This document shows, piece by piece, positions 8,527 through 62,205 of a DNA stretch of 64,000 bases. Every line of letters starts with the position of its first letter. Positions within the stretch are counted from its first letter, which is position 1. Under the pieces are notes generated by a model. It searched no databases. It was not told the DNA's origin and saw only the letters and a list, made by a program, of their open reading frames with translations. Made by a program: the position numbers and the translations under genes. The stretch comes from Cordylochernes scorpioides (Eukaryota; Arthropoda; Arachnida; Pseudoscorpiones; Chernetidae), in assembly GCA_030710605.1 (NCBI GenBank), contig CP092876.1, positions 67,084,115-67,148,114 of the forward strand, in the 5' to 3' direction.

Positions 8527-8811
8527 ATACGAATGACCCGGGCAACGCCCGGGTTTTACCCGATTAAATGCTTTTATTCAAATACTATTCGTTACAATTA
8601 TAAATTGGCGCCGTGGATGTCATTCTTGTATAATATATAAATGAGTTTTAAAAATTGTAAAAAAAAAAAAAATGCATCGGCCGGGAATCGAACCCGGGCC
8701 GCCCGCGTGGAAGGCGAGCATTCTACCACTGAACCACCGATGGTTATGAAAAATCCCATCCGTGAGCTTCAAACAGACAAACAGACAGAATAAGGCAAAT
8801 ATATAAGTAGA
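8527..8811 (-). mobile_element. Short Helitron (family B) carrying a tRNA-Gly gene
   Basis: ~285-bp element. The 3' side has the ACCCGGGC-AAC-GCCCGGGT hairpin and ACGAATGA, but the terminal CTAG is not visible in this copy. The 5' side reads TCTACTTATATATTTGCC (8811 downward), then a CTGTCTGTTTG-rich stretch and a tRNA-Gly. Nearly the same arrangement occurs at 58725-59006. Confidence 0.8.
8673..8743 (-). tRNA. tRNA-Gly with anticodon UCC, inside a Helitron
   Basis: 71-nt cloverleaf matching canonical eukaryotic tRNA-Gly, including GGTTCGATTCC (B box) and GGTTCAGTGG (A box region). The anticodon loop reads CTTCCAC, giving UCC rather than the GCC of sister copies (57329, 58864). The first acceptor base is C instead of G, breaking the 1-72 pair. 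A T-run follows the 3' end, as for Pol III termination. Whether it is charged and used is unknown. Confidence 0.75.
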
Positions 8812-12176: not shown

Positions 12177-12444
12177 TAAAAGGGAGATCAAGAGGAAAGT
12201 GGTGAGTTTCTTTATTGAGCTGTACACAAGCTTTCGGACGTCACCCGTCCTTCATCAGGTGTTGACATGAATAAGAAGGAGATGCTATATTTATAAGCGA
12301 CAGTTTAAAAGTATTAAAAATATTAAAAACAATCTGATGCACGCCCGCGAGAGCACATGCTAATAACAAAATATTTTCAATTTTACTCTGTATAAATATT
12401 ATTTTGAGTTTGTATAAAGAATATCAGCCCGTTGAAAATCTGTA
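12177..12444 (-). repeat. Left terminal repeat of the Penelope element
   Basis: 268 bp, inverted copy of 13076-13343. Includes a hammerhead-like motif at 12221-12267 on the minus strand. Confidence 0.85.
12221..12267 (-). ncRNA. Hammerhead-ribozyme-like motif in Penelope terminal repeat (left)
   Basis: Same 47-nt motif as 13253-13299, on the opposite strand. Core CTGATGA, a 5-bp stem II (GGACG/CGTCC, loop GGTGA), then GAAA, a self-complementary AGCT, and a TT cleavage position followed by GTGT. GTGT pairs with the ACAC before the core. An extra A lies between CTGATGA and stem II. Confidence 0.6.
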
Positions 12445-12564
12445 TACCTAAGACGAAGTGAGAAAGGCGGACAACGAGAGGCGAAGACAAAAGCAAGAAA
12501 AAACAACAATAAAAATAGAAAAAATAAAAATAAAAAATCAGCGGAATAAAGATAAAGTTAAAAG

Positions 12565-13074
12565 TTACGAAGAAGGTGTATCTGAGGTAGAATAAAAAAC
12601 AGAATATTGGGGCGGGAGGTCAATCTTTCTGTTGAGGCTGGGGGTAGTATTAGAAACAAGGGCCTCAAGAACTAAGCGTTGGTATTTGTTTGCTATATCG
12701 CTATAAATGGGGGTTGTGTTGTCGAGATTGAAGGAATGTCCGGGCTCGGCGATATGTTGGTATATGAGCGATTTTTTGTCTTTCGAGCGGATGTTACGGG
12801 CGTGTTCACTGGCTCTGATGGCGATTGTTCGGCCTGTTTCTCCAATGTAGTGTAAATCGCAATCGTTACAGGGAATTTTGTAAACGGCGTTGGAAAGGGA
12901 TTGGGGGTTACGTTTGGCGGAGCTTTTTGTGATAGGATGTCTTAAGAAGGTGTGAAGGGAAGGTGTGCACTTGTAAAAAGTGCGAATGCCGTATTTACGT
13001 AAAAAGGAACCAATACCAGAATTCGTGGTGGAGTATGGGAGGACGCAGGTGCTTTTAAATACAGGAGGTGTGGT
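12565..13074 (-). CDS. GIY-YIG endonuclease domain of a Penelope-like element (partial, no ATG)
   Basis: An open frame of 169 codons lies between stops at 13075-13077 and 12565-12567 on the minus strand. It has no usable ATG at its beginning, so simple ORF callers miss it. It encodes KIPCNDCDLHYIGETGRTI, a GIY-YIG nuclease motif preceded by the paired cysteines typical of Penelope-like elements. IRASEHARNIR and QHIAEPGHSFN follow, matching the family's R..EH and H...GH positions. The upstream RT domain is gone; the preceding bases belong to the terminal repeat. In live elements this nuclease nicks the target DNA. The C-terminus ends naturally at TAA. Confidence 0.85.
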   Translation of the reverse strand, partial: TTPPVFKSTCVLPYSTTNSGIGSFLRKYGIRTFYKCTPSLHTFLRHPITKSSAKRNPQSLSNAVYKIPCNDCDLHYIGETGRTIAIRASEHARNIRSKDKKSLIYQHIAEPGHSFNLDNTTPIYSDIANKYQRLVLEALVSNTTPSLNRKIDLPPQYSVFYSTSDTPSS

Positions 13075-13075
13075 T

Positions 13076-13343
13076 TACAGATTTTCAACGGGCTGATATT
13101 CTTTATACAAACTCAAAATAATATTTATACAGAGTAAAATTGAAAATATTTTGTTATTAGCATGTGCTCTCGCGGGCGAGCATCAGATTGTTTTTAATAT
13201 TTTTAATACTTTTAAACTGTCGCTTATAAATATAGCATCTCCTTCTTATTCATGTCAACACCTGATGAAGGACGGGTGACGTCCGAAAGCTTGTGTACAG
13301 CTCAATAAAGAAACTCACCACTTTCCTCTTGATCTCCCTTTTA
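13076..13343 (+). repeat. Right terminal repeat of the Penelope element
   Basis: 268 bp, inverted copy of 12177-12444, with the same hammerhead-like motif (13253-13299, plus strand) and an AATAAAG signal near its outer end. Confidence 0.85.
13253..13299 (+). ncRNA. Hammerhead-ribozyme-like motif in Penelope terminal repeat (right)
   Basis: ACAC-CTGATGA-A-GGACG-GGTGA-CGTCC-GAAAGCTT-GTGT. The catalytic boxes CUGAUGA and GAAA flank a stable stem II. Stem I pairs ACAC with GTGT and, past a two-base bulge, TGT with ACA. Stem III is reduced to self-complementary AGCT, suggesting that two copies act as a dimer. Type I hammerheads with tiny stem III are known from Penelope-like elements. The extra A before stem II may weaken it. 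Confidence 0.62.
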
Positions 13344-13387
13344 CACTTCAAACGTGGCTATATCTCTTCTACCATGTCAGATCCTAG

Positions 13388-30358: not shown

Positions 30359-31133
30359 TGTGATATCTTGGGACCTCTGGGACCAGTGTTACCTGATGCT
30401 AGACGACCCTCGATGTCAACTCTACCGTGCAGTCGTGGTGGAAGGCGACACAGCTGGGCCAAAGGTGAAATAAACAAACAGAGATTCCACTAAAAGCGTC
30501 TGACGTCAAGAAGGAATGGGATGAGGAGAGAGAGATTTTAGAGCAAGTGTTACCGTTGAAATCCAAGCGAAGACTGGCAATTCTAGGTTCTCGATTTAAC
30601 ACCACGACCTTGCTTCTTTCTAATTGGCTGACCTATTTAGGTGATTCTTTCCTAATTGGTGGGACTTTTTCACGTGGCCGTAGGCTATTGGTTGACCTAC
30701 TTAGGTATTGTCTTCTGATTGGGCCTGGCTTATCTCTTTGACGGAGGATATATATCCGGCCTTGCTACGGAAATACGGGGCGTTACTCTTAGCTTTTATG
30801 GTTTCTGCGTTATCAGATACGCCCTGTCCTGTCAGGAAGTATTGACTTGTAAATTATTTATAGTTGGGCTGGTTTTAAGCCTCTTTTGCTTGGCCTTGCT
30901 TCGACTTCTGTCCTAAGCCTGATTAGTTTTAACCTTAACTTTCTCCTGTTGGTCTCCATTCCTTCTATCTGTACAGTTGCGATACTTTATTAGATTCTTA
31001 CGCGGTACAGATTGATGTTAGTTGAGGCTTTCTATGTGCAGTACATAAGGAGTTATATACAGTCATGGGGTGGAACATGTGGTAGGAGATATCTAGACTA
31101 TTTACAACAATTCCATGGTCTTAAATCATCACA
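30359..31133 (+). repeat. 5' LTR
   Basis: Direct copy of 35049-35823, with TGTG...CACA ends. Confidence 0.85.
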
Positions 31134-35048: not shown

Positions 35049-35823
35049 TGTGATATCTTGGGACCTCTGGGACCAGTGTTACCTGATGCTAGACGACCCT
35101 CGATGTCAACTCTACCGTGCAGTCGTGGTGGAAGGCGACACAGCTGGGCCAAAGGTGAAATAAACAAACAGAGATTCCACTAAAAGCGTCTGACGTCAAG
35201 AAGGAATGGGATGAGGAGAGAGAGATTTTAGAGCAAGTGTTACCGTTGAAATCCAAGCGAAGACTGGCAATTCTAGGTTCTCGATTTAACACCACGACCT
35301 TGCTTCTTTCTAATTGGCTGACCTATTTAGGTGATTCTTTCCTAATTGGTGGGACTTTTTCACGTGGCCGTAGGCTATTGGTTGACCTACTTAGGTATTG
35401 TCTTCTGATTGGGCCTGGCTTATCTCTTTGACGGAGGATATATATCCGGCCTTGCTACGGAAATACGGGGCGTTACTCTTAGCTTTTATGGTTTCTGCGT
35501 TATCAGATACGCCCTGTCCTGTCAGGAAGTATTGACTTGTAAATTATTTATAGTTGGGCTGGTTTTAAGCCTCTTTTGCTAGGCCTTGCTTCGACTTCTG
35601 TCCTAAGCCTGATTAGTTTTAACCTTAACTTTCTCCTGTTGGTCTCCATTCCTTCTATCTGTACAGTTGCGATACTTTATTAGATTCTTACGCGGTACAG
35701 ATTGATGTTAGTTGAGGCTTTCTATGTGCAGTACATAAGGAGTTATATACAGTCATGGGGTGGAACATGTGGTAGGAGATATCTAGACTATTTACAACAA
35801 TTCCATGGTCTTAAATCATCACA
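35049..35823 (+). repeat. 3' LTR
   Basis: Direct copy of 30359-31133, preceded by a polypurine tract. Confidence 0.85.
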
Positions 35824-35996
35824 TATATATATATAGATGGAAATTTTGCCGGGAGGAAAATGATCTAAAGAGACAAGGGTCGCCTCTCCCGTCAAAATAG
35901 ACGTCTAAAACAGACGCCATCTATTGACCGTCGCCGCAACTAGCGGCCTCGGGTCGGTGACAAAGCCACAACACCAGCTTTGGCAAACTGAAAAGC

Positions 35997-36051
35997 GTCC
36001 ACCTAGAGACCATGGTTTCGGGCTGATGGCCCTCGTCAGTCTAGGGCGGAC
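35997..36051 (-). ncRNA. Type I hammerhead ribozyme, unit 1
   Basis: Minus strand: GTCC-GCC-CTAGA, then CTGACGA, stem II GGGC/GCCC with loop CATCA, GAA, ACCATGGT, C, then TCTAG-GT-GGAC. Stem I pairs CTAGA with TCTAG and GTCC with GGAC across an internal loop (GCC opposite GT). The catalytic boxes CUGANGA and GAAA are intact, the A15.1-U16.1 pair and C17 are present, and cleavage is predicted after GGTC. Stem III (ACCATGGT) is self-complementary, so two ribozymes could share an 8-bp stem. Confidence 0.85.
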
Positions 36052-36315
36052 TTTATTCCATGAGATCCACACGGGATCTAATGGAATCTTGACAATCTGC
36101 CAAAGAGGTGTTTTGCTGGCAAAGTGGCTGGGCCATATCTATGGCTAAAATATAGATGGAAATTTTGCCGGGAGGAAAATGATCTAAAGAGACAAGGGTC
36201 GCCTCTCCCGTCAAAATAGACGTCTAAAACAGACGCCATCTATTGACCGTCGCCGCAACTAGCGGCCTCGGGTCGGTGACAAAGCCACAACACCAGCTTT
36301 GGCAAACTGAAAAGC

Positions 36316-36370
36316 GTCCACCTAGAGACCATGGTTTCGGGCTGATGGCCCTCGTCAGTCTAGGGCGGAC
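36316..36370 (-). ncRNA. Type I hammerhead ribozyme, unit 2
   Basis: Identical to the unit 1 ribozyme, 319 bp away. Cleavage at both sites of a minus-strand transcript would release a 319-nt monomer. Confidence 0.85.
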
Positions 36371-36726
36371 TTTATTCCATGAGATCCACACGGGATCTAA
36401 TGGAATCTTGACAATCTGCCAAAGAGGTGTTTTGCTGGCAAAGTGGCTGGGCCATATCTATGGCTAAAATATAGATGGAAATTTTGCCGGGAGGAAAATG
36501 ATCTAAAGAGACAAGGGTCGCCTCTCCCGTCAAAATAGACGTCTAAAACAGACGCCATCTATTTTGACGGGAGAGGCGACCCTTGTCTCTTTAGATCATT
36601 TTCCTCCCGGCAAAATTTCCATCTATATTTTAGCCATAGATATGGCCCAGCCACTTTGCCAGCAAAACACCTCTTTGGCAGATTGTCAAGATTCCATTAG
36701 ATCCCGTGTGGATCTCATGGAATAAA

Positions 36727-36781
36727 GTCCGCCCTAGACTGACGAGGGCCATCAGCCCGAAACCATGGTCTCTAGGTGGAC
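36727..36781 (+). ncRNA. Type I hammerhead ribozyme, inverted unit
   Basis: Same 55-nt sequence as units 1 and 2 but on the plus strand, so transcripts of either direction contain at least one ribozyme. Confidence 0.85.
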
Positions 36782-36975
36782 GCTTTTCAGTTTGCCAAAG
36801 CTGGTGTTGTGGCTTTGTCACCGACCCGAGGCCGCTAGTTGCGGCGACGGTCAATAGATGGCGTCTGTTTTAGACGTCTATTTTGACGGGAGAGGCGACC
36901 CTTGTCTCTTTAGATGTATATATATATGAAAAAATAGTAGAGAAGTGATATTGTACTGGGTTCAGGTTATTAAAT

Positions 36976-37030
36976 TAAGAAAAAGGCATCTCCTCATCTC
37001 ATGATCAGGAGAGAGATGCCTTTTTCTTAA
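36976..37030. repeat. Short perfect hairpin
   Basis: TTAAGAAAAAGGCATCTC is followed after ~20 bases by its exact reverse complement GAGATGCCTTTTTCTTAA: an 18-bp stem with a ~20-nt loop. It could be a tiny palindromic MITE or a small structured RNA. Nothing more can be said from the sequence. Confidence 0.6.
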
Positions 37031-37944
37031 CACATATGTATGTATAAAATAAAAAAAGGTATATCCAGATCACGAGCACATGAGTTTTTTAGATGGCTGC
37101 GCGCCATCTAGTGGAACAGAAAGCAACTAAACGTTGATTTACCAACATATTGATACCAACACCTGACCTTTTCATAATATTTTTCACAAATCTATATATT
37201 AAAATAAGAAGAATATATAAATGCATGCTTTTGCGTTTGAATTCAGACAAACCAAAATTTCATTAGAATAATATTCTTGTAATTGAATACAATAAAAATA
37301 TGCTATCAAAGGATGTGTTTTTTTTTAATATTTTCATATCTAGGAAAACGGAAGCTTATTGTTTATTTCTTTTATCGCTTGTGAAATCGAGGTCGAGATG
37401 GTGACTGTTCCAATCATCGCCCAGAAAATAACTCAAGTTATATCCTTGTGTTTCAAACAAGTATCCTTTCATTTGATATGAGACCTTATAAACAGATTAA
37501 AATAATAAAAAGGGGAGAAAGTCTCTAAGAATATATCCTTAAAACACCATATCAATATGGTTTCAATCAACTGTCAAATTTGCCAATTTTCCCACCTTAA
37601 TCGACGCATTTTACATTGAGGTAAAAGAAACATTTTATCGTCACTTCTGTAAGTAAAAATGTCTATACCTATTTCAGAATATCCTCCCATGAGAGACCAC
37701 CCACAAGAGAAACCGGGAGTATCCATGCTATATAAACAGTATCATTTTTAAGATTCTACTATTTCTAAGAAATTAAACTATTGAAGCAAACCCTTTTGAT
37801 TTTAAAAATGAAATAAACTTTCTACTGTCCTTACTGCGAGGAAAAAATATTAGGAGGACTTGGCTCATTAGTGTTATATCCTATCAGCGGTATTGACAAT
37901 TTAATCGCCGATATGCTACTGTATTGTACGATTTTATTTATATA

Positions 37945-38658: not shown

Positions 38659-38726
38659 TGTGACACTGTGGGAATCGAATCTCAGTTATGACATTCAAGC
38701 AAACTACTTCACGGACATTATCTCAC

Positions 38727-39079
38727 CGGGCTGGATGTTATCCCAGAAGATGGTGAGGTAGTTATCTCGGTCCGAACGGCTCTGCTCATGGAAGAAGCCC
38801 AGGGCATGGCTGATCTCGTGGACTACGGTGCCGTGGTACTCGCAGCCCGACCCCAGGGGCTGCTTGCCGCCCGCCATCTCAGCGAACGTGTAGCACCTGT
38901 ATCACATCATTGCCACCCGGGCTTGGAGCCTGACTCGACCACTCACCCATAGCCTCTGAAGAAGTGAAGGTTATATCCTGATGGAGTGCTGAGCTCTTCA
39001 AACGTCAGACATTTTTTTGACTTGCCAGTCAAGTCCTCCATATGTTTCATAGCTTCCTTTATAAGCTTTCCGAGGTAGG
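38727..39079 (-). CDS. Astacin-family metalloprotease, two internal exons including the zinc site (copy 1)
   Basis: Upper exon 39079-38947 (acceptor TGCAG): [17 protein letters not shown] and KKCLTFEEL, the start of the astacin domain, ending FFRGYG. A 50-bp intron (38946-38897, GTGAGT...ACAG) follows. Lower exon 38896-38727: [20 protein letters not shown], then [20 protein letters not shown], a perfect HExxHxxGFxHExxR zinc and active-site signature, then [12 protein letters not shown], and a GTGAGA donor. No stops or frameshifts. Compared with copy 2 it lacks two codons after QPL. The phase joins to the exon at 29715. Earlier exons (signal peptide, propeptide) are not visible in the window. 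Confidence 0.88.
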
Positions 39080-43749: not shown

Positions 43750-44507
43750 AATGTAATATAAAAAGCCAACAATGAAGAATGAATGTAAGATAAAAATCCA
43801 ACAATGAAGAGTAAATATAATATAAAAAGCTAACAATGAAGAATGAATGTAAGATAAAAAGCCAACAGAGTGAATGTAAGATAAAAAGCCAACAATGAAG
43901 AGTGAATGTAATATAAAAAGCCAACAATGAAGAATGAATGTAGGATAAAAAGCCAACAATGAAGAGTGAATGTAAGATAAAAAGCCAACAACGAATAGTA
44001 AATGTAATATAAAAAGCCAACAATGAAGAATGAATGTAAGATAAAAAGCCAACAACGAATAATAAATGTAATATAAAAAGCCAACAATGAAGAGTAAATG
44101 TAATATAAAAAGCCAACAGAGTGAATGTAAGATAAAAAGCCAACAATGAAGAGTGAATGTAATATAAAAAGCCAACAATGAAGAATGAATGTAAGATAAA
44201 AAGCCAACAATGAAGAGTGAATGTAATATAAAAAGCCAACAATGAAGAATGAATGTAAGATAAAAAGCCAACAATGAAGAGTGAATGTAAGATAAAAAGC
44301 CAACAATGAATAGTAAATGTAATATAAAAAGCCAACAATGAAGAATGAATAAGATAAAAAGCCAACAATGAATAGTAAATATAATATAAAAAGCCAACAA
44401 TGAAGAATGAATGTAAGATGAAAAGCCAACAATGAAGAGTAAATATAATATAAAAAGCCAACAATGAAGAGTGAATGTAAGATAAAAAGCCAACAATGAA
44501 GAGTGAA
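43750..44507 (-). repeat. 32-bp minisatellite array, about 23 units
   Basis: Unit (minus strand): TTCATTGTTGGCTTTTTATC plus TTACATTCACTC, with TTC/TAT variants and occasional shortened units lacking the CTTCATTG part. Because 32 is not a multiple of three and the unit lacks stops in all frames, it creates 240-263-codon frames in all three registers; these are not genes. The same satellite occurs in opposite orientation at 57685-58718. Confidence 0.92.
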
Positions 44508-44968
44508 TCTATCTATATATATAAAATTGAATGTCTGTCTGTCTGTTTGTCTGCACTCTATAGATTCAAAAACCATACATCCAATCGCCGTGAAATTTTG
44601 GGATATTATTAGGTTTATCACCGGGAAGGTTTTTGAAAAATAATTTCCTGAATATCTTGAATATCCTTAGAGTTATTTGCAGATTTGTAGATTTAACTCG
44701 CAAGCAGAGCCCCCATTGTGACGATGATAACAATATATCGAGAGATTCAAATTTACGAGTTTCAAATTATCAAAATATATCTTTTTTTTTTAAATAAGTT
44801 TTTAGAGAATTGTTTTAACAAATGTTCGCTAGACAAACCTTTACTCGGGTAAAACCCCGGGCGAAGCCGAGTACGTTTTATAAGTTTATAGAGAATTGTT
44901 TTAACAAATGTTCGTTAGACAAACATTCACTCGGGTAAAACCCGGGCGAAGCCGGGCACATCCGCTAG
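44508..44968 (+). mobile_element. Helitron family A with a duplicated 3' terminus
   Basis: TC start at 44508 or 44512, with the family block CCAATCGCCGTGAAA. A first 3' terminus at about 44838-44876 (GGGCGAAGCCGAGTACG) lacks CTAG. A second, complete one follows 90 bases later, ending CTAG at 44965-44968. Confidence 0.82.
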
Positions 44969-45589
44969 TATATATATATATGATAAATTAAACCCACAAC
45001 CTCATATTGTATATAATATAACAAGATATTATGTTGTATAATAGAAACACATCTGTAAATAATTATTCAAATGATTGACCTGTGTCATTACATCACCATA
45101 TGTAATGTACTTTGTACAAACTGAGGATGAATAAATAAATCTCTGTAATAAATTAAGAGTTGAGCTAGAGCAAAAATCGAGATGTAGAAGTCCGAACGAG
45201 GCCTAGAATATGTTAGGGCGTTTCCCTCGCCCTTTTTGCCACCGCTGAAACCCAATACATCCTCTCGGCAAAGATATATGAGCTTCCAATAGGGCCAGAA
45301 AAAAACAGTCTCTTCACCATAAGCGGGAGCCTTCGTCGGTGTGTCCAAGGTCCACCTCATCGACCATGTAGAACAGTAAGAAAATTTTATCTCCATCTTT
45401 CGCTCCTAGCTCGACTTTTATCTGTTCACGGAACTTTCCTAGTACAACTGTGTCTCTTTTAGCATCTCTCCTTTAAAAGGACACCTCTTCCCAAAAGACA
45501 CTCTGGTTCTGCAATTAGTTGTCCTTTATAGGGAGGTTTTCTATTGTAATAAATATTATTTTTATATATAAATATAATTATCAACAGGA
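44969..45589. other. Non-coding stretch with a partial MITE
   Basis: No gene recognised. The 102-codon frame on the minus strand (45088-45396) shows no known domain. A degraded MITE related to 5871-6042 lies at about 45450-45548, with GGTTCTGCAATTAGTTGTCC and GGGAGGTTTTCTATTG. Confidence 0.5.
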
Positions 45590-45731
45590 GGAAATTGATC
45601 CATAGAAGCATAGGGCGCCTCTCCCGTCAAAATAAACCCCAAAACCTGACACCATCTATTGACCGTCGCCGCAACTAGCGGCCTCGGGTCGGTGACAAAG
45701 CCACAACACTAGCTTTGGCAAACTGAGAAGC

Positions 45732-45786
45732 GTCCACCTAGAGACCATGGTTTCGGGCTAATGGCCTTCGTCAGTCTAGGGCGGAC
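45732..45786 (-). ncRNA. Type I hammerhead ribozyme, one stem II pair lost
   Basis: Same layout as 35997-36051 with CTGACGA and GAAA intact, stem I (CTAGA/TCTAG, GTCC/GGAC) and stem III (ACCATGGT) preserved. In stem II the first pair is now A opposite C, and the loop is CATTA, so activity may be reduced. Confidence 0.7.
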
Positions 45787-45966
45787 TTTATTCCATGAGA
45801 TCCTCACGGGAACTAATGGAATCTTCACAATCCACCAAAGAGGTGTTTTGCTGGCAAGGTGGCTGGGCCAAATCTATGGCTAGAATATAGATGGAAAATT
45901 TTCCGGGAGGAAATTGATCCATAGAAGCATAGGGCGCCTCTCCCGTCAAAATAAACGTCAAAACCT

Positions 45967-46021
45967 CGTCGACGAGGGCCATTAGCACGAAACCATGGTC
46001 TCTAGGTGGACGCTTTTCAGT
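45967..46021 (+). ncRNA. Decayed hammerhead ribozyme
   Basis: Inverted partial unit. The first core box reads GTCGACGA instead of CTGACGA, a stem II pair is broken (GCAC), and the 5' half of stem I is missing at the junction. Predicted inactive. Confidence 0.65.
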
Positions 46022-46170
46022 TTGCCAAAGCTGGTGTTGTGGCTTTGTCACCGACCCAAGGCCGCTAGTTGCGGCGACGGTCAATAGATGGCGTCAGGTT
46101 TTGACGTTTATTTTGACGGAAGAGGCGCCCTATGCTTCTATGGATCAATTTCCTCCCGCAAATTTTCCAT

Positions 46171-51439: not shown

Positions 51440-52634
51440 TATTTAGGTTTTTAAACTAAAAATTAGATAAAATTCTAAAAGTTGATATATAATCTGGAAA
51501 ACTACTGTTTTCCCTGGATCGTGATCGCTCACAGCTACAGCTGGTCTGAGCGAAGTGGATAGCTCACTTACACAGGTTTTTCAAACAAAGAAAGGGCTTG
51601 AAAAAGATGAAATTATGAAAAATTATTTTTTTTTTCATTGTAGAAAATGCTCAACTTCAGACATTACCATGTCATCTGATAAACTCGCCACATACACTCC
51701 TCCTTACAGCGTCCATTAATTATACAGCTTATATGTACATACGGTATGGTGAGAGCCCAAGCTCTTCTATTGGTTCTTCTAAAGACCTAAATCAGTATGC
51801 AATGTTTTTCTAGATCAGCAGTCGCACTAAGCAATAAAATTGTATATTAAATAAAAAGTTTTACTTTAATACAAATTTAAAAAAAAAGAGAGAGAGAGAG
51901 TGTGTACGCGAGACTTTCACTAAAATATTTTAAATTCTAACCAAAAAAAATTATTGTGAACTTGATTATCAAGATATATTATTTTTTATATAATAAATTT
52001 ATCTATTTCCTTAATATATATGAAAACGTATCAGCCACACACCATAAACCCTTCAATTGAGAGAAAAATAAGATATTCAGAATATTTCACTAGACCTCGC
52101 TTGTAGCAAATCCCGCAATCAAATCTCAATTCTATATGAATTCTAAGAAATATATCTTTAAAACACACCAGATTGATATAGTTTCAGTGAACTGTCAAAT
52201 TTGCCTATTTTCCTACCTTAATCGACGCATTTTACATTGAGGTAAAAGAAACAATTTTATTGTCACTTCTGTAAGTAAAAAGATCTATACCAATTCTTGT
52301 ATAACCTCCCATGAGAGACCACCTTTAAGAGAAACCGTGTTATTTATACAGTCTCATTTAAGATTATATTATATCTAATAAATTAAACTGTTGAAGCAAA
52401 ACCTTTTGATTTTAAAAGTAAAATTGAATTCTACTGTCCTTACTGCGAAGAAATATTTTGGGAGGACTTGGCTCATTAGCGTTGAATCCTATCAGCGGTA
52501 TTGCCAATTTAATCAATGATACCGCTTTTTAGAGATATGCTACTTTATTGTACGATTCTGCTTATATATGCAACAATTTTATGTTATATCTGGTTATTTT
52601 ATTTGAGCAAACTACTTCACGGAAACCATCTCAC
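51440..52634. other. Non-coding DNA; second half belongs to the segmental duplication
   Basis: A GA run lies at 51884-51900. From about 52140 it matches 37500-37944, including TACATTGAGGTAAAAGAAAC and TTGGCTCATTAG. No gene. Confidence 0.5.
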
Positions 52635-52993
52635 CGGGCTGGATGTTAATCCAGAAGATGGTGAGGTAGTCATCTCGGTCCGAGCGGCTCTGTTCATGGA
52701 AGAAGCCCAGGGCATGGCTGATCTCGTGGACTACGGTGCCGTGGTACTCGCAGCCCGACCCCAGGGACAGGGGCTGCTTGCCGCCCGCCATCCCAGCGAA
52801 CGTGTAGCACCTGTATCACACCATTGCCACCCGGGCTTGGAATCTGATTCGACCACTCACCCATAGCCTCTGAAAAAGTGAAGGTAATCTCCTGACAGAG
52901 TGCTGATTTCTTCAAACGTCAGACAATTTTTTGGCTTGCCAGTCAAGTACTCCATATGTTTCATAGCTTCCTTTATAAGTTTTCCAAGGTAGG
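52635..52993 (-). CDS. Astacin-family metalloprotease, two internal exons including the zinc site (copy 2)
   Basis: Upper exon 52993-52861 (acceptor TGTGTTGCAG): [27 protein letters not shown], ending FFRGYG. A 50-bp GT-AG intron (52860-52811) follows. Lower exon 52810-52635: [52 protein letters not shown], then a GTGAGA donor. Open and intact. No matching last exon is seen between here and copy 1, so this copy either lacks its end, splices to the distant exon at 29715, or is an alternative exon pair of one gene. Confidence 0.87.
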
Positions 52994-55983: not shown

Positions 55984-56338
55984 CTAGACGAATGGCCCGG
56001 GCAACGCCCGGGTTTTACCCGAGTGCGTATATATTTTAAAAATATTTTAATTAAAATACTATTCGTTACAATTATAAATTGGCGCCGTGGATGTCTCTCT
56101 TGTGAAACGTCCCGCCCCAAACTGTGTGTGTCTTGAAAATATAAAAATAAAAATGTGAACGGAAAAATATGTCCAGGGTAGCCTAGTGGTCATGGCATCT
56201 GCCCGGTAAGCGGAAGGTCGTGGGTTCGATTCCCATCCCTTGACACTTTTTTTATTTCATCCATTCTGACCAAAATCTATCCGTGAACTTCACACAGTGA
56301 ACTTCACACAGAGAGAATAAGGCAATTATATAAGTAGA
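55984..56338 (-). mobile_element. Helitron family B, internally deleted, carrying a Thr-like tRNA
   Basis: 355 bp with complete ends: minus strand A|TCTACTTATATAATTGCC and ACCCGGGC-AAC-GCCCGGGC-like hairpin, CTAG (55984-55987)|T. Same 5' region and tRNA as the 725-bp copy at 61481-62205, with the middle deleted. Confidence 0.88.
56172..56244 (+). tRNA. tRNA-like gene, Thr-type anticodon GGT, inside a Helitron
   Basis: Acceptor TCCAGGG/CCCTTGA (one C-T mismatch), D-arm GCC...GGC, anticodon stem TCTGC/GCGGA with loop CCGGTAA, T-arm GTGGG-TTCGATT-CCCAT. The anticodon would be GGT (Thr). Position 33 is C instead of the near-universal U, so it may not decode. Its strand is opposite to the Helitron's 5'-to-3' direction. 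The sister copy at 61575-61647 reads AGT. Confidence 0.65.
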
Positions 56339-56399
56339 TAATCCAAATTGTGCCTTATCACACACTATTTTTTTATTTAGCCTTATTACCTTGTGTTTA

Positions 56400-57292
56400 T
56401 AATCTATATCGTAATGCCGGCGGCGCGCGCCCGTTGGCTGCCGGCGAGCACGTGACCTCCCTGTGCGCGCGCATCCGTGACAGAGCCGGCCGGCCCATGA
56501 CGGTCGTGACTATATTTGTTGATGGATGGATAATAATAATAATATAATAATAATGATAATGATAACGAGTGATAATCTACTCGGTATTGTTTATGCGATA
56601 AAACAGAATAAGAGAAGAAAAGTTTCTTTATTAGAAAAATTATAACGGTGCGAGCTTTCAGGTAAAAACCCCTTCTACAGGCGTGTGACACTATAACATA
56701 GGTAATATGGCTAAAAAGAGAATATCGTATAAGTCGCATAAACACCTTTCATATAGCTAGCTTCTGAGATTTCCATGGAAGCTAGCTATATGAAAGGTGT
56801 TTATGCGACTTATACGATAAATTCTCTTTCTAGCCATATTACCTATGTTATAGTGTCACACGCCTGTAGAAGGGGTTTTTACCCGAAAGCTCGCACCGTT
56901 ATAATTTGTCTAATAAAGAAACTTTTCTTCTCTTATTCTGTTTTATCGCATAAATGATAATGATCATAATGATGATGCGCGCGCACCCGTGACAGAACCG
57001 GCCGGCCGGCCCATGACGGTCGTGACTATATATGTTGATGGATGGATAATAATAATAATATAATAATAATGACAATGATCATAATGATGATGCGCGCGCA
57101 CCCGTGACAGAACCGGCCGGCCGGCCCATGACGGTCGTGACTATATATGTTGATAATAATAATAAAAGTATAATAATAATAATAATAATAATAATTATTA
57201 TTATTATTATCATTAGATTATGATCATGATCATAATGATGATGCGCGCGCACCCGTGACAGAACCCATGACGGTCGTGACTATATATGTTGA
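56400..57292. repeat. GC-rich/ATA tandem repeat of ~110 bp units interrupted by a fold-back
   Basis: Four copies of CATGACGGTCGTGACTATAT (near 56495, 57011, 57128 and 57267) in units with GCGCGCGCACCCGTGACAGA and ATA/GAT-rich spacers. The fold-back element at 56590-56955 sits between the first and second. CACGGTCGTGACTATATATA also recurs at 59660 and, in part, 60290. Confidence 0.75.
56590..56955. mobile_element. Fold-back pair of Penelope-type terminal repeats
   Basis: Two ~180-bp inverted arms around a ~20-bp centre (near 56770). The arms contain a hammerhead-like CTGTAGA, a G/C stem (GGGGTTTTTACCC) and GAAAGCTC, plus an AATAAAG signal at the outer side, as in the Penelope terminal repeat at 13076-13343. 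The first core box departs from CTGANGA by one base. No coding interior remains. Confidence 0.65.
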
Positions 57293-57645
57293 TAATATAA
57301 ATGAGTTTTAAAAATTGTAAAAAAAAAATGCATCGGCCGGGAATCGAACCCGGGCCGCCCGCGTGGCAGGCGAGCATTCTACCACTGAACCACCGATGCT
57401 TTAAAAAATGGCCATATTTAGGTATTCATTCCATTCCGGATTAGTCCGGGTAAAAAAAAGTTCTTCAAATGAAAAAAAGAAATAGCCAAAAATACTACTC
57501 AAAATGCAGCCGAAAATTTTCCTCAGGTTTATAAAAAGCGACATGCAAAATTTGGTACCAATTGGTTCAGTAGTTTTTGAGTTTATCGCGAAACAGACAG
57601 ACAGACAGAAATTGACTTTTATATATATATAGAGATATAGAGATA
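57293..57645 (-). mobile_element. Helitron 5' segment (family D) carrying an intact tRNA-Gly
   Basis: Inverted relative of 14197-14544: the TATATATATAAAAGTC leader with a CTGTC repeat at 57600-57630, AACTCAAAAACTACTGAACC, then the tRNA and the AAACTCATTTATAT block. No 3' hairpin or CTAG. Confidence 0.78.
57329..57399 (-). tRNA. tRNA-Gly (GCC), fully canonical, inside a Helitron
   Basis: 71 nt; all stems pair (GCATCGG/CCGATGC, CTCGC/GCGGG, CCGGG/CCCGG). Anticodon GCC, intact A and B boxes, discriminator A, followed by a T-run terminator. Best candidate in the window for a working tRNA-Gly. Confidence 0.92.
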
Positions 57646-57684
57646 TATAGAGATATAGAGATATAGAGATAGAGATATAGAGAT

Positions 57685-58718
57685 TTACTCTTCATTGTTG
57701 GCTTTTTATCTTACATTCATTCTTCATTGTTGGCTTTTTATATTACATTCACTCTTCATTGTTGGCTTTTTATCTTACATTCACTCTGTTGGCTTTTTAT
57801 TACATTTACTCTTCATTGTTGGCTTTTTATCTTACATTCACTCTTCATTGTTGGCTTTTTATATTATATTTACTATTCATTGTTGGCTTTTTATCTTACA
57901 TTGATTCTTCATTGTTGGCTTGTTATAATACATTAACTCTTCATTGTTGGCTTTTTATCTTACATTCACTCTTCATTGTTGGCTTTTTATCTTACATTCA
58001 TTCTTCATTGTTGGCTTTTTATATTACATTCACTCTTCATTGTTGGCTTTTTATCTTACATTCATTCTTCATTGTTGGCTTTTTATATTACATTCACTCT
58101 TCATTGTTGGCTTTTTATCTTACATTCACTCTGTTGGCTTTTTATATTACATTTACTCTTCATTGTTGGCTTTTTATCTTACATTCACTCTTCATTGTTG
58201 GCTTTTTATATTATATTTACTCTTCTTTGTTGGCTTTTTATCTTACATTCACCCTTCATTGTTGGCTTTTTATCTTACATTCATTCTTCATTGTTGGCTT
58301 TTTATATTACATTCACTCTTCATTGTTGGCTTTTTATCTTACATTCACTCTGTTGGCTTTTTATATTACATTTACTCTTCATTGTTGGCTTTTTATCTTA
58401 CATTCACTCTTCATTGTTGGCTTTTTATATTATATTTACTCTTCATTGTTGGCTTTTTATCTTACATTCATTCTTCATTGTTGGCTTTTTATAATATATT
58501 TACTCTTCATTGTTGGCTTTTTATCTTACATTCATTCTTCATTGTTGGCTTTTTATATTACATTTACTATTCATTGTTGGCTTTTTATCTTACATTCACT
58601 CTTCATTGTTGGCTTTTTATCTTACATTCATTCTTCATTGTTGGCTTTTTATATTACATTCACTCTTCATTGTTGGCTTTTTATCTTACATTCACTCTTC
58701 ATTGTTGGCTTTTTATAT
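57685..58718 (+). repeat. 32-bp minisatellite array, about 32 units
   Basis: Same unit as 43750-44507, in the opposite orientation (TTCATTGTTGGCTTTTTATC plus TTACATTCACTC), preceded by a GATATA run. All three plus frames stay open for up to 359 codons purely from the repeat. It lies between a Helitron 5' segment and a Helitron 3' end. Confidence 0.93.
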
Positions 58719-59006
58719 CATATACGAATGACCCGGGCAACGCCCGGGTTTTACCCGATTAAATGCTTTTATTCAAATATATTCGTTACAATTATAAATT
58801 GGCGCCGTGGATGTCATTCTTGTATAATATATAAATGAGTTTTAAAAATTGTAAAAAAAAAAATGCATCGGCCGGGAATCGAACCCGGGCCGCCCGCGTG
58901 GCAGGCGAGCATTCTACCACTGAACCACCGATGGTTATGAAAAATCCCATCCGTGAGCTTCAGACAAACAGACAAACAGACAGAATAAGGCAAATATATA
59001 AGTAGA
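58719..59006 (-). mobile_element. Helitron family B carrying tRNA-Gly
   Basis: Close match of 8527-8811: minus strand TCTACTTATATATTTGCC, CTGTC repeat, tRNA-Gly, AATTGGCGCC block, then the ACCCGGGC-AAC-GCCCGGGT hairpin. It ends against the 32-bp array without CTAG. Confidence 0.8.
58864..58934 (-). tRNA. tRNA-Gly (GCC) with acceptor mismatch, inside a Helitron
   Basis: Anticodon GCC, all other stems intact, first base C instead of G (CCATCGG), the same acceptor change as in the UCC copy at 8673-8743. The two Helitrons therefore share a common source. Confidence 0.8.
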
Positions 59007-59363
59007 TATTATATAATCTGAAATGAAATTATTTTATTTTTTAAAAACATATATTTTATTTTCATTCATTATCTGTTCTACGTTTTTTAACCATAGAATC
59101 AGAACATACTATGAAAAATATTGTTGCAAATATGTATAGTTGAACCCACCTATTTTTTAATTCACGCGCGTGCGCGATTATAGAATTCATTTTTTAAATT
59201 CAATATTACTGTGAAAAATAATTTTATATGTATTTTACTTCAAGTAATTCAAAATAAAAACTACTTGATGGGTAAATAATTATTTTTCCTATTTTCACGA
59301 CTGCACCTCCTATTCTATCTTTTTTCATCAACAAAACCAAATAATTCATAACATATATATATA
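59007..59363. other. AT-rich non-coding stretch
   Basis: Nothing recognised. Contains ACGCGCGTGCGCG (59163-59175) in otherwise A/T DNA. Confidence 0.5.
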
Positions 59364-59680
59364 CTAGCTGAATGACCCGGGCAACGCCCGGGGTTTACCC
59401 GATTAAATGCTTTTATCAAATACTATTCGTTACAATTATAAATAGGCCCCGTGGATGTCATTCTTGTATAATATATAAATGAGTTTTAAAAATTGTAAAA
59501 AAAAAAAAAATGCATCGGCCGGGAATCGAACCCAGGGCGCCCACGTGGCAGGCGAGCATTCTACCACTGAACCAAAAGCAAACGGTGACAGAATTAAGTA
59601 CGCATGACGATGATAACTGTATATTATCCGTGACAGAGGCGGCCGATGAGGAAACACGGTCGTGACTATATATAATAATA
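59364..59680 (-). mobile_element. Chimeric Helitron 3' end with truncated tRNA-Gly and a different 5' leader
   Basis: CTAG at 59364-59367 and the GCCCGGGT-type hairpin of family B, then the AACTCATTTATAT block and tRNA-Gly up to its D-arm. There, at 59575, the sequence changes to AAAAGCAAACGGTGACAGAA, continuing to a GTCGTGACTATATA end. The same chimera is seen at 60021-60300. Confidence 0.72.
59511..59574 (-). pseudogene. tRNA-Gly remnant lacking its 5' acceptor strand
   Basis: Anticodon and T arms are recognisable (GCC anticodon, B box intact). The first ~8 bases of the tRNA are replaced at the chimeric junction, and there are additional changes in the variable region. Cannot fold a full acceptor stem. 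Confidence 0.75.
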
Positions 59681-59685
59681 ATCCA

Positions 59686-60020
59686 AACTGTACCTTATCA
59701 TGGATGTGGTCTTGTTACCTTGTGTTTATAATCTATAATCCAAATTGTACCTTATCATGGATGTGGTCTTATTACCTTGTGTTTATAATCTATAATACAA
59801 ACTGTACCTTATCATGGATGTGGTCTTGTTACCTTGTGTTTATAATCTATAATTCAAATTGTGTCTTATCATGGATGTGGTCTTATTACCTTGTGTTTAT
59901 AATCTATAATCCAAACTGTACCTTATCATGGATGTTGTCTTATTACCTTGTGTTTATAATCTATAATCCAAATTGTACCTTATCATGGATGTGGTCTTAT
60001 TACCTTGTGTTTATAATCTA
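59686..60020 (+). repeat. 57-bp minisatellite, six units
   Basis: Unit contains CTTATCATGGATGTGGTCTT and ACCTTGTGTTTATAATCTAT. Since 57 is 19 codons, one frame reads the same 19-residue motif (LSWMWSYYLVF) six times; this is not a protein gene. A single diverged unit occurs at 56340-56400. Confidence 0.9.
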
Positions 60021-60300
60021 CAACGCCCGGGGTTTACCCGATTAAATGCTTTTATTCAAATACTATTCGTTACAATTATAAATTGGCCCCGTGGATGTCA
60101 TTCTTGTATAATATATAAATGAGTTTTAAAAATTGTAAAAAAAAAAATGCATCGGCCGGGAATCGAACCCGGGGCGCCCGTGTGGCAGGCGAGCATTCTA
60201 CCACTGAACCAAAAGCAAACGGTGACAGAATTAAGAACGCATGACGATGATAACTGTATATTATCCGTGACAGAGGCCACGACAGACGGTCGTGACTATA
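60021..60300 (-). mobile_element. Second chimeric Helitron piece with truncated tRNA-Gly
   Basis: Matches 59364-59680 but loses the outer half of the 3' hairpin, where the 57-bp array abuts (CAACGCCCGGGG at 60021). tRNA remnant at 60148-60210, then the same AAAAGCAAACGGTGACAG leader. Confidence 0.7.
60148..60210 (-). pseudogene. tRNA-Gly remnant lacking its 5' acceptor strand
   Basis: Same truncation point as 59511-59574, with T arm and anticodon arm retained. Confidence 0.72.
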
Positions 60301-60343
60301 TATATTATATATTTATATATTCCCAACATATAAAATGTAGAAA

Positions 60344-60507
60344 CAGTAGAGGCAAACTTCAGAGACTTCCCAAAAACGTGACCAAACCAGCCTCTCCCAG
60401 AATTGGTCTCTTTTCATAGATTCTTTCATGCCAGGAAGAACCCCTAATGAGAAGCCACCCCCAAGAGAGACCTGGCTGTAGGCGGTCTCTCATGTGAGAC
60501 TCTACTG
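60344..60507. mobile_element. MITE with CAGTAGAG...CTCTACTG-type ends
   Basis: 164 bp; left CAGTAGAGGCAAACTTCAGA, right ending GTGAGACTCTACTG, flanked by T/A-rich DNA. Counterpart of 42038-42165. Confidence 0.65.
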
Positions 60508-60720
60508 TATATAAATTTATATATTCATCTCTATTTAGAAGAATTAAAAACTTGTCTGTTACGCCTGACTCGTTTTTAAAAAATAAATGAAATATTTTAT
60601 ACTAATAAATAATAAAAAAAATCGCATCAGATACATTTTTTGTCGTTATTTATAAAATATATGTGGAATTAATATTATATTTTAACATTTTGATGATTCA
60701 ATTTAAAATATTTCGATAAA

Positions 60721-60883
60721 CAGTAGAATCTCCCTTTAGCGGACACCTTTCATTTGCAAACTGCACCTCTCTACAAAGGATAGTTTTTAATTGCAAAATT
60801 ATCATTTTTACTATTTAGCATTTCTTCTGTAAAAGGAGACTTTGGCTCTGCAATTAGGTATCCTTTATAGAGAGGTTCTATTG
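60721..60883. mobile_element. MITE related to 5871-6042
   Basis: Left end CAGTAGAATCTCCCTTTAGC, right end GAGAGGTTCTATTG, interior GGCTCTGCAATTAGGTATCC as in the other copies. 163 bp. Confidence 0.68.
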
Positions 60884-61152
60884 TATAATAAATATCAATT
60901 TTATTATTTATTAATATAATTATCAAAAAATGCTATTATCTCTCTCAAATAAAACTATTAACTTTGTTATTTTTATATTTTCAAGTCACAACATCTTCAA
61001 GTTAAAAAAATATATATTTTATTGTACATGGTTTAAAAGTTTACTATCGATAAATTTAGATTTTTGCTATTTTGTAACTTTTTCGTTGAATTCTGATTTG
61101 TATTACTATATTTTAGAAAGTGTGTGCTTGACATTAATTTTTGTTTGTTTTA
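60884..61152. other. AT-rich non-coding stretch
   Basis: Counterpart of about 45548-45590 in copy 1, then unassigned A/T-rich DNA; a 77-codon frame here is low complexity and not supported. Confidence 0.5.
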
Positions 61153-61480
61153 TCTACTTATAGCCTTATTCTGTCTGTGTGAAGTTCACTCTCTGAAGTT
61201 CACGGATAGATTTTGGTCAGAGTCATCAGTCATCAATTCTGCCATCGTTTTAAAAAATTAAAATATTAAAAAAAAGATGCCGAAACCCGGGATCGAACCA
61301 GGGACCTTTAGATCTTCAGTCTAACGCTCTCCCAACTGAGCTATTTCGGCTTATTTTATTCATTTCTATAGAAGCTTCTATCTTTATAATTATGTATATT
61401 TTCAAAAAGTCAATTCACACCTCTTCGCTGGAGACCATGGGAATACTGACTAATTCATTATGCTAACATAATCATCATCA
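61153..61480 (+). mobile_element. Helitron family B 5' segment carrying tRNA-Phe
   Basis: A|TCTACTTATAGCCTTATTC start followed by GTGTGAAGTTCAC and GTTCACGGATAGATTTTGGT as in 61481-62205, then an intact tRNA-Phe. No 3' hairpin or CTAG before the next Helitron begins at 61481, so the 3' part is lost or displaced. Confidence 0.78.
61278..61350 (-). tRNA. tRNA-Phe (GAA), canonical, inside a Helitron segment
   Basis: 73 nt with GCCGAAA/TTTCGGC acceptor, anticodon loop ACTGAAGAT (GAA), TTCGATC T-loop and discriminator A. Every stem pairs and it matches the strongly conserved animal tRNA-Phe form. It is encoded opposite to the Helitron's direction; a T-run follows its 3' end. Confidence 0.93.
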
Positions 61481-62205
61481 TCTACTTATATAATTGCCTT
61501 ATTCTGTCTGTGTGAAGTTCACTGTGTGAAGTTCACGGATATATTTTGGTCAGAATGGATAAAATAAAAAAAGTGTCAAGGGATGGGAATCGAACCCACG
61601 ACCTTCCGCTTACTGGGCAGATGCCATGACCACTAGGCTACCCTGGACATATTTTTCCGTTCATAAAGTCAATATATGATGCCAATATATATAATAATTG
61701 TATAAACGAATGCAAGACAAAATCACCGCGAATGTTTCTTTTTTTAAGGCAATTTTTGTTTCGATTTTTTTGAAAAAAAAACGATATGGTGCCTTTAAAA
61801 AATGATCTTTATTACTATGCAGTTTTCTATTTAGTCAATATACCTAAGTTTATGTTGTAAATGTAATTATCTCTATCGATTTAGTAGGTGAAATGCAAAA
61901 AAAAAAAATCGACATGATGAAATCTTTATGAAAATTCACATTTTTATTTTTATATTTTCAAGACACACACAGTTTGGGCCGGGACGTTTCACAAGAGAGA
62001 CATCCACGGCGCCAATTTATAATTGTAACGAATAGTATTTTAATTAAAACATTTTAAAAACACACAGTTTGGAACGGGACGTTTCACAAGAGTGACATCC
62101 ATGGCGCCAATTTATAATTGTAACGAATAGTATTTGAATTAAAACGTTTTTAAAATATATACGCACTCGGGTAAAACCCGGGCGTTGCCCGGGCCATTCG
62201 TCTAG
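61481..62205 (+). mobile_element. Helitron family B, complete, carrying a Thr-like tRNA
   Basis: 725 bp, A|TCTACTTATATAATTGCC at 61481 and GGGCGTTGCCCGGGCCATTC, GT, CTAG at 62202-62205 followed by T. Interior holds the tRNA-like gene (61575-61647) and two copies of the GACATCCA(C/T)GGCGCCAATT block. It is the reference copy for 7979-8526 and 55984-56338. Confidence 0.9.
61575..61647 (-). tRNA. tRNA-like gene, Thr-type anticodon AGT, inside a Helitron
   Basis: 73 nt, same as 56172-56244 except the loop reads CCAGTAA (anticodon AGT). Position 33 is C in both copies and the acceptor has one mismatch. Could be a degenerate tRNA-Thr or the tRNA head of a SINE; no SINE body is apparent. Confidence 0.62.

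Follow-up and report, generated by a model that had tools for sequence, protein, structure and literature searches.

The closest described relatives of the element reported here are the metazoan non-LTR retrozymes. According to the accessible part of PMC7229834, they consist of tandem units of 170-400 nt that are highly self-paired, contain no ORF of note and carry a type I hammerhead with a weak palindromic stem III, and they share their genomes with Penelope elements; all of this also applies to the 319-nt family described below. From this co-occurrence and from shared hammerheads, Penelope has been named a candidate carrier of retrozymes (PMC7229834 and PMC7761336, in the parts accessible). 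The mover of animal retrozymes and the use of a circle as template are so far conjecture.

The purified reverse transcriptase (RT) of a Penelope element, Poseidon of Anolis, can cut and extend each of the two strands of AT-rich DNA and uses a pair of neighbouring internal start sites, which delimit the genomic tail; both strands are alike in their start site, hammerhead cleavage is dispensable in vitro and unprocessed RNA is the dominant substrate (accessible part of PMC11167929). For Penelope inserts of Adineta vaga, the accessible part of PMC3846280 gives pLTRs in inverted orientation, one of which bears a tail of 31 bp, and for rotifer Penelope target duplications of 8-10 bp, compared to 11-13 bp in the 319-nt family. 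As far as these sources go, the 319-nt family resembles Penelope-like elements in its two RT starts (30-40 nt apart in the latter and delimiting the tail), in inverted copies with a tail on one, in AT-rich targets, in target duplications and in a hammerhead upstream of the starts in the sense direction. In contrast to Penelope-like elements, it has no ORF for an RT or endonuclease, its hammerhead possesses a stem III and its arms circle the unit several times. The 319-nt element itself is not a Penelope element, since an ORF with a telomerase-like RT, in Penelope-like elements usually joined by a GIY-YIG endonuclease, is absent, but it may be carried by one.

The window, a stretch of 64,000 nucleotides from the pseudoscorpion Cordylochernes scorpioides (Arachnida), contains at 35831-36915 a single head-to-head inverted insertion, in which 2.30 direct units of 319 bp are followed by 1.12 inverted units. 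The left arm (35831..36563, plus strand, u1 to u95 in unit coordinates) has 733 nt, and the hammerhead sense of its units is the minus strand; the right arm (36558..36915, minus strand, u71 to u33) has 358 nt, and the arms are 100% alike. A sequence-only reading of this DNA had described direct units of exactly 319 bp, and this period was confirmed (2.3 copies with 100% matches in 35831-36563), but the inverted arm had been missed together with its hammerhead. Since 36558-36915 is an exact inverted copy of 358 bp of the direct units and brings with it a third, plus-strand hammerhead, we regard 35831-36915 as one two-armed element. Its arms overlap by 6 nt (TCTATT), a microhomology, and its outer ends differ: end A of the left arm lies at u1 (ATATAGATGG), directly after (TA)n, and end B of the right arm at u33 (..CTTTAGAT). 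The tail segment u1-u32 between the putative RT starts A (u1) and B (u33) can be drawn in the second full unit at 36150..36181 on the minus strand. A (TA)n target flank precedes the element (35823..35830), and a TA-rich target flank follows it (36916..36927) and leads into the next insertion.

According to the ORF list of the window, there is no open frame of at least 110 aa within 35831-36915. Metazoan non-LTR retrozymes lack LTRs, PBS and PPT and have larger target duplications; apart from its own units, the element shows no direct terminal repeat that resembles an LTR. The GC content of the unit is 49.8%, compared to the values of below 50% (text) or below 45% (figure legend) given for metazoan retrozymes. 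The left flank 35049-35823 is 99.9% identical to 30359-31133 (775 bp). However, the latter was rejected as a clean empty site, as the identity extends precisely to the TA run of the retrozyme and does not continue in the right flank. An older two-armed insertion of the same family is present at 45587..46170 (approximately 90% identity); its left end corresponds to neither A nor B, and it carries decayed hammerheads on the minus (45737-45780) and plus strand (45963-46007).

The proposed location of the element in an astacin intron is unproven. Zinc-motif exons of the astacin (M12A) type are located on the minus strand at 38707-38901 (Pfam E 9.5e-20) and 52615-52815 (E 6.5e-24), but a pattern search of the minus strand from 28 to 56 kb did not find the later astacin motif. 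The window further contains two 32-bp satellite arrays built from one unit in opposite orientations (43750-44508 and 57683-58716), and tRNA matches, seven of which cluster at 56172-61647 (two of them weak), with two more at 8673 and 14436.

All three hammerhead motifs of the insertion are intact. As had been read from the sequence, two lie on the minus strand with both boxes, stems I and II and a cleavage triplet, one at 36002..36045 with the predicted cut between 36008 and 36007, the other at 36321..36364 with the predicted cut between 36327 and 36326; the third is found on the plus strand at 36733..36776, inside the inverted arm. A minus-strand transcript that is cut at both hammerheads would release a 319-nt monomer (36008-36326). 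The core consists of CUGACGA, GAAA and GUC with a 4-bp stem II (GGGC/GCCC), and stem I is made of 6 bp and, beyond a bulged C, another 4 bp. The weak stem III has two pairs and the palindrome CCAUGG, similar to the axolotl hammerhead with its stem III of 1-2 bp and a palindromic tetraloop favouring dimers (accessible part of PMC7229834). The hammerhead satellites of newt and axolotl differ from the 319-nt family in sequence and host, and the likeness is at the level of the motif.

A match to the Rfam covariance model for hammerheads had been set beforehand as a test, and this test formally failed: for the 319-family motif, nothing was found at the gathering threshold, and the Rfam hammerhead families gave no match at E ≤ 5 on 35700-37100 and none at E ≤ 10 on 35985-36070. 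The Rfam model Hammerhead_HH9 matches the sister family with a unit of 338 nt (26.5 bits, E 4.5e-5), which is below its gathering score of 52. A cross-family covariance model, which we built solely from three 338-type hammerheads, returned five matches in the window in a search to E 5, and every one is a retrozyme hammerhead; three score at E 6.4e-8, and the other two (E 1e-5 and 0.024) belong to the decayed copy at 45.7-46.0 kb. Seemingly strong, but below-gathering Rfam matches to miRNA and plastid families at 36467-36620 and 36970-37032 lie on inverted repeats and were taken as chance, not as microRNAs.

In 71 of 72 copies, taken without a pairing filter, the stem I pair u175/u212 is standard (43 G-C, 24 A-U, 4 G-U, one mismatch), and a compensatory change in stem I (G-C versus A-U) separates two subfamilies of the 319-nt family. 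In stem covariation, 11 hammerhead types score above shuffled controls for four out of five measures, with the clearest difference in the paired cells (97.7% versus 85.5%). These 11 types, however, had come through a filter requiring pairing, and therefore we place the weight on the pair in 71 of 72 copies and on the cross-family model. The 319-nt circle is predicted to fold with -120.5 kcal/mol, compared to -86.2 for 200 shuffles (z -6.9), and the antisense circle is predicted to be of almost equal stability (z -5.7). This predicted fold contains stems I and II, but it pairs the GAC of the core with the GUC triplet and leaves stem III open; the lowest-energy prediction is therefore not the active hammerhead core. 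Site B falls within an unpaired stretch, and site A is located at a helix end beside one. Overall, the motif, the stem I pair and the cross-family model argue for a putative type I hammerhead with three helices, while the failure of Rfam to recognise it and the predicted fold speak against it.

The core of the unit (32 nt) has 21,648 matches with at most 3 mismatches in the 2.62 Gb genome (10,778 plus 10,870), compared to 0 matches for the reversed pattern under the same threshold, and the exact A-end pattern beginning TATATATA has 1222 matches. The 319-bp family is tandem, non-coding and dispersed over many contigs, in line with the units of about 150-450 bp of metazoan retrozymes. We sampled 60 loci, 20 from the best matches and 40 from the first listed core clusters, in addition to the two copies of the window; this sampling is biased to copies holding the exact core or a full unit. 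The resulting 69 clusters were reduced to 63 by removal of six with duplicate flanks, although for at least two of them (L028 and L052) this flag may be false, given their TA flanks; two clusters cut by the end of the locus were also excluded. The 63 clusters comprise 46 two-armed insertions and 17 that are one-armed or irregular. Among the two-armed ones, 38 have both ends at u1 or u33 and eight have an end elsewhere, with bins for A and B that were fixed after the first loci had been seen.

The classification of the element as retrozyme-like, as suggested by the initial reading, agrees with its unit size, the tandem arms, the type I hammerhead with a short palindromic stem III, the multiple copies and the self-paired unit. 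However, it is incomplete, as the element is two-armed and inverted and has fixed unlike ends in (TA)n. We consider it likely that a retrozyme of the metazoan type is mobilised in trans by a Penelope-like element, with both cut ends of the target priming on circular RNA. This reading builds on the observed ends, inversion, target, readable duplications, shared variants, read-through of the cut site and junctions.

Within an insertion, both arms carry the same variant in 147 of 151 informative cells from seven sites (33 two-armed insertions of at least 96% identity; positions 3, 6 and 35 of the unit were omitted as they touch the ends), whereas 2000 permutations reach 69.6% on average and 83.3% at maximum. 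With these three positions added and elements with fewer than three shared sites dropped, agreement amounts to 205 of 225. From the shared variants it follows that both arms of an insertion probably derive from one RNA or one RNA clone. The ribozyme cut site is passed by 61 of 76 arms, and 44 of the 76 are longer than one unit. The cut site shows no clustering of arm ends (2 ends, compared to 2.6 expected), and this test does not support a run-off on linear cleaved monomers.

These arms point to a circular or concatenated template, most likely a circle. It would be rather unlikely that the same twin-primed process takes place on linear multimeric transcripts without any circle, although a concatemer would suffice for long arms and the RNA used predominantly in vitro was unprocessed (accessible part of PMC11167929). 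The longest arm (L026), a unit-match run without inner junction or (TA)n flank, extends over 3475 nt or approximately 11 units, compared to a median of 339 nt for the sampled arms as possible sources of such transcripts, and in arms of several units 249 of 273 site cells are homogeneous, which also argues against linear multimers.

The positions of the inner junctions vary between insertions. Among 25 junctions from copies of at least 98% identity, ten show a microhomology of at least 3 nt (5.3% expected), with 21 nt in L020, and eight contain a filler of 1-9 nt. The inner positions are not uniform along the unit (p 0.004), and from their excess at about u58-u116 it appears that the RT may pause there. 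The offsets between the arms, however, are consistent with a uniform distribution (KS p 0.67), and this speaks against a snap-back of the first-strand cDNA, which would copy itself into the inverted arm, a kind of self-priming that has been proposed for Penelope (accessible part of PMC3846280). A snap-back would account for the inversion and for the variant common to both arms, but it predicts that the arms meet near one unit position, and they do so within 20 nt in one of 38 insertions (4.9 expected by chance); a fold-back loop of 0-40 nt fits five of 38 junctions (4.9 expected). As it also leaves the separate fixed start B unexplained, we regard this possibility as quite improbable.

The ends of the insertions are constant. 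One A end (u1) and one B end (u33), 32 nt apart, are present in 37 of 38 scorable two-armed insertions, while two A ends never occur and two B ends occur once (binomial p 2.8e-10). The number of 37 comprises 36 insertions as called and L015, which was mis-called through a merged neighbouring piece of the 338-nt family and in which the u1 end is evident. The sole scorable insertion of the 319-nt family with two B ends (L022:1325-2971) is an exception without explanation. The 319-nt family thus has the two starts and the one-copy tail of Penelope-like elements.

L1-type twin priming resembles the proposed process in that two target 3' ends prime on the RNA and an inversion results. In L1, one 3' end is fixed and the second start is variable, whereas the 319-nt family, like Penelope, has two fixed starts, here at a distance of 32 nt. 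A LINE in place of a Penelope-like element would be compatible with the size of the target duplications, given the similar 15 bp reported for Nematostella repeats and likened to LINEs (accessible part of PMC4918200), and with the RT and RNase H fragments present in the window, but in view of the two fixed starts we consider a LINE as mobiliser very improbable.

The sister family with a unit of 338 nt shows the same arrangement. Its ends lie at v131 and v177, 46 nt apart, and all ten two-armed insertions with both ends assigned have one A and one B end (eight of eight without the duplicated loci L057 and L059); 14 more clusters had just one assignable end. A very short insertion of this family is present in the same TA run beside the 319-nt element (36922..37030). 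Its left arm is a BLAST match at 36924-36998 with an end of type A, and its short inverted right arm, read by eye, ends in ..CTTTTTCTTAA and is of type B.

The targets of the 319-nt family are mostly (TA)n. Target duplications of 11-13 bp, e.g. TACAAATATTTT and ATTATTCGCCAA, are readable in seven of 38 insertions, and two of these seven are TA-rich. Another 26 of 38 insertions show a match of at least 9 nt that is made purely of TA, and a microsatellite alone could yield such matches; five of 38 show no target match. Among the 28 insertions with less uniform flanks, 23 match over at least 9 nt, compared to 38.6% for re-paired flanks. The AT-rich target and the duplication, as far as it is readable (7 of 38), are shared with Penelope-like elements.

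Tandem units and high copy number would also be expected of an ordinary hammerhead satellite, which spreads by recombination or DNA-level amplification and is inverted by a later rearrangement, but this is extremely improbable in view of the fixed ends, the readable duplications, the TA targets and the many contigs, and a later inversion would not give the two sides different ends (u1 and u33), alike ends being found in just one of 38 insertions. An equally remote candidate is a palindromic DNA transposon or MITE with terminal inverted repeats, whose inverted structure and TA flanks are matched here, but the termini are unlike (u1 versus u33) where identical ones and a fixed interior would be expected, arm lengths and junction position vary, and the readable duplications are of 11-13 bp.

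The window also contains a Penelope-like insertion (12178..13383), which lies in (TA)n and has inverted arms of 272 bp (99.3%) with their sense 3' ends directed outward; end B is at the left and a 41-nt tail is present at the right end only. The C-terminal open frame of the element (12568..13074, minus strand, 169 aa) has a weak Pfam match to GIY-YIG (E 0.007; 17.1 bits with a cut-off of 22.6) and no Pfam match at 0.001, and four related database proteins are from Cordylochernes scorpioides, two of them named GIY-YIG proteins. A first look at the genome gave 49,751 candidates for this frame, and 150 scored copies are at least 93% identical and have open frames of up to 823 aa. Among these 150, there are 32 neighbouring pairs within 8 kb, and 31 of them are in outward -/+ order and one is in tandem; the outward order is the one given by the proposed two-primed model. 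Rfam showed no hammerhead at the motif of the Penelope copy, and a comparison by eye of the start-site regions of the retrozyme and the Penelope element of the window gave no clear similarity. A second Penelope-like family (L042:1-1450), 46% identical to that of the window over 153 aa, has a hammerhead-like motif at approximately 1375-1410, as judged by eye. At L067:1816-1886, a 71-bp piece of the Penelope end of the window stops inside the tail in TA-rich DNA and looks like a very short insertion.

For the mobilisation in trans, we infer self-cleavage, RNA circularity, the identity of the enzyme, the overhangs and the order of the steps. The hammerhead would cut transcripts of tandem units, and the resulting monomer of 319 nt would close to a circle, as in published retrozymes. 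An RT/endonuclease of the Penelope type would cut TA-rich DNA on both strands and leave 3' overhangs of about 11-13 nt, as implied by the duplications. The two 3' ends would then prime reverse transcription at different sites separated by 32 nt, A (u1) for one end and B (u33) for the other, and the resulting cDNAs would travel round the template over variable lengths. Joining of the convergent cDNAs, often through microhomology, would result in a head-to-head inverted repeat with two fixed unlike ends and a variable junction. Judging from the shape of the insertions, the copying enzyme of Penelope would read the RNA circle from both ends of the DNA cut. A more specific version, for which we see about as much reason to believe as to doubt, is a double-ended rolling-circle reverse transcription, in which both 3' ends of the staggered break would read one circle simultaneously, each with its own start (A or B), as would be expected if one circle were gripped asymmetrically by a dimeric Penelope RT.

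Animal retrozymes are already known and Penelope has already been proposed as their carrier, but the two-armed, two-start form of a retrozyme insertion seems to be new. The accessible part of PMC7229834 contains no description of two-armed inverted insertions with two fixed ends, of TA targeting or of a variant shared by the arms. Among the titles and abstract openings searched, a partial coverage of the literature, there is no report of inverted or tailed retrozymes. As far as the texts were accessible, the word 'inverted' is absent from the main text of PMC7229834, occurs only in a reference in PMC7761336 and only in the abbreviation list of PMC4918200, and is used in the contexts of back-splicing and viroids in PMC11722881.

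The two-armed, two-start form ties retrozymes to Penelope by anatomy, and the presence of the Penelope two-start signature in retrozyme insertions makes the question of the carrier directly testable. Moreover, the arms of the retrozymes record how far the enzyme travelled round its template. If the double-ended reading of one circle is true, hammerhead circles would be natural trans-substrates of the Penelope machinery, and the tail and the inverted copies of Penelope elements themselves would share this cause.
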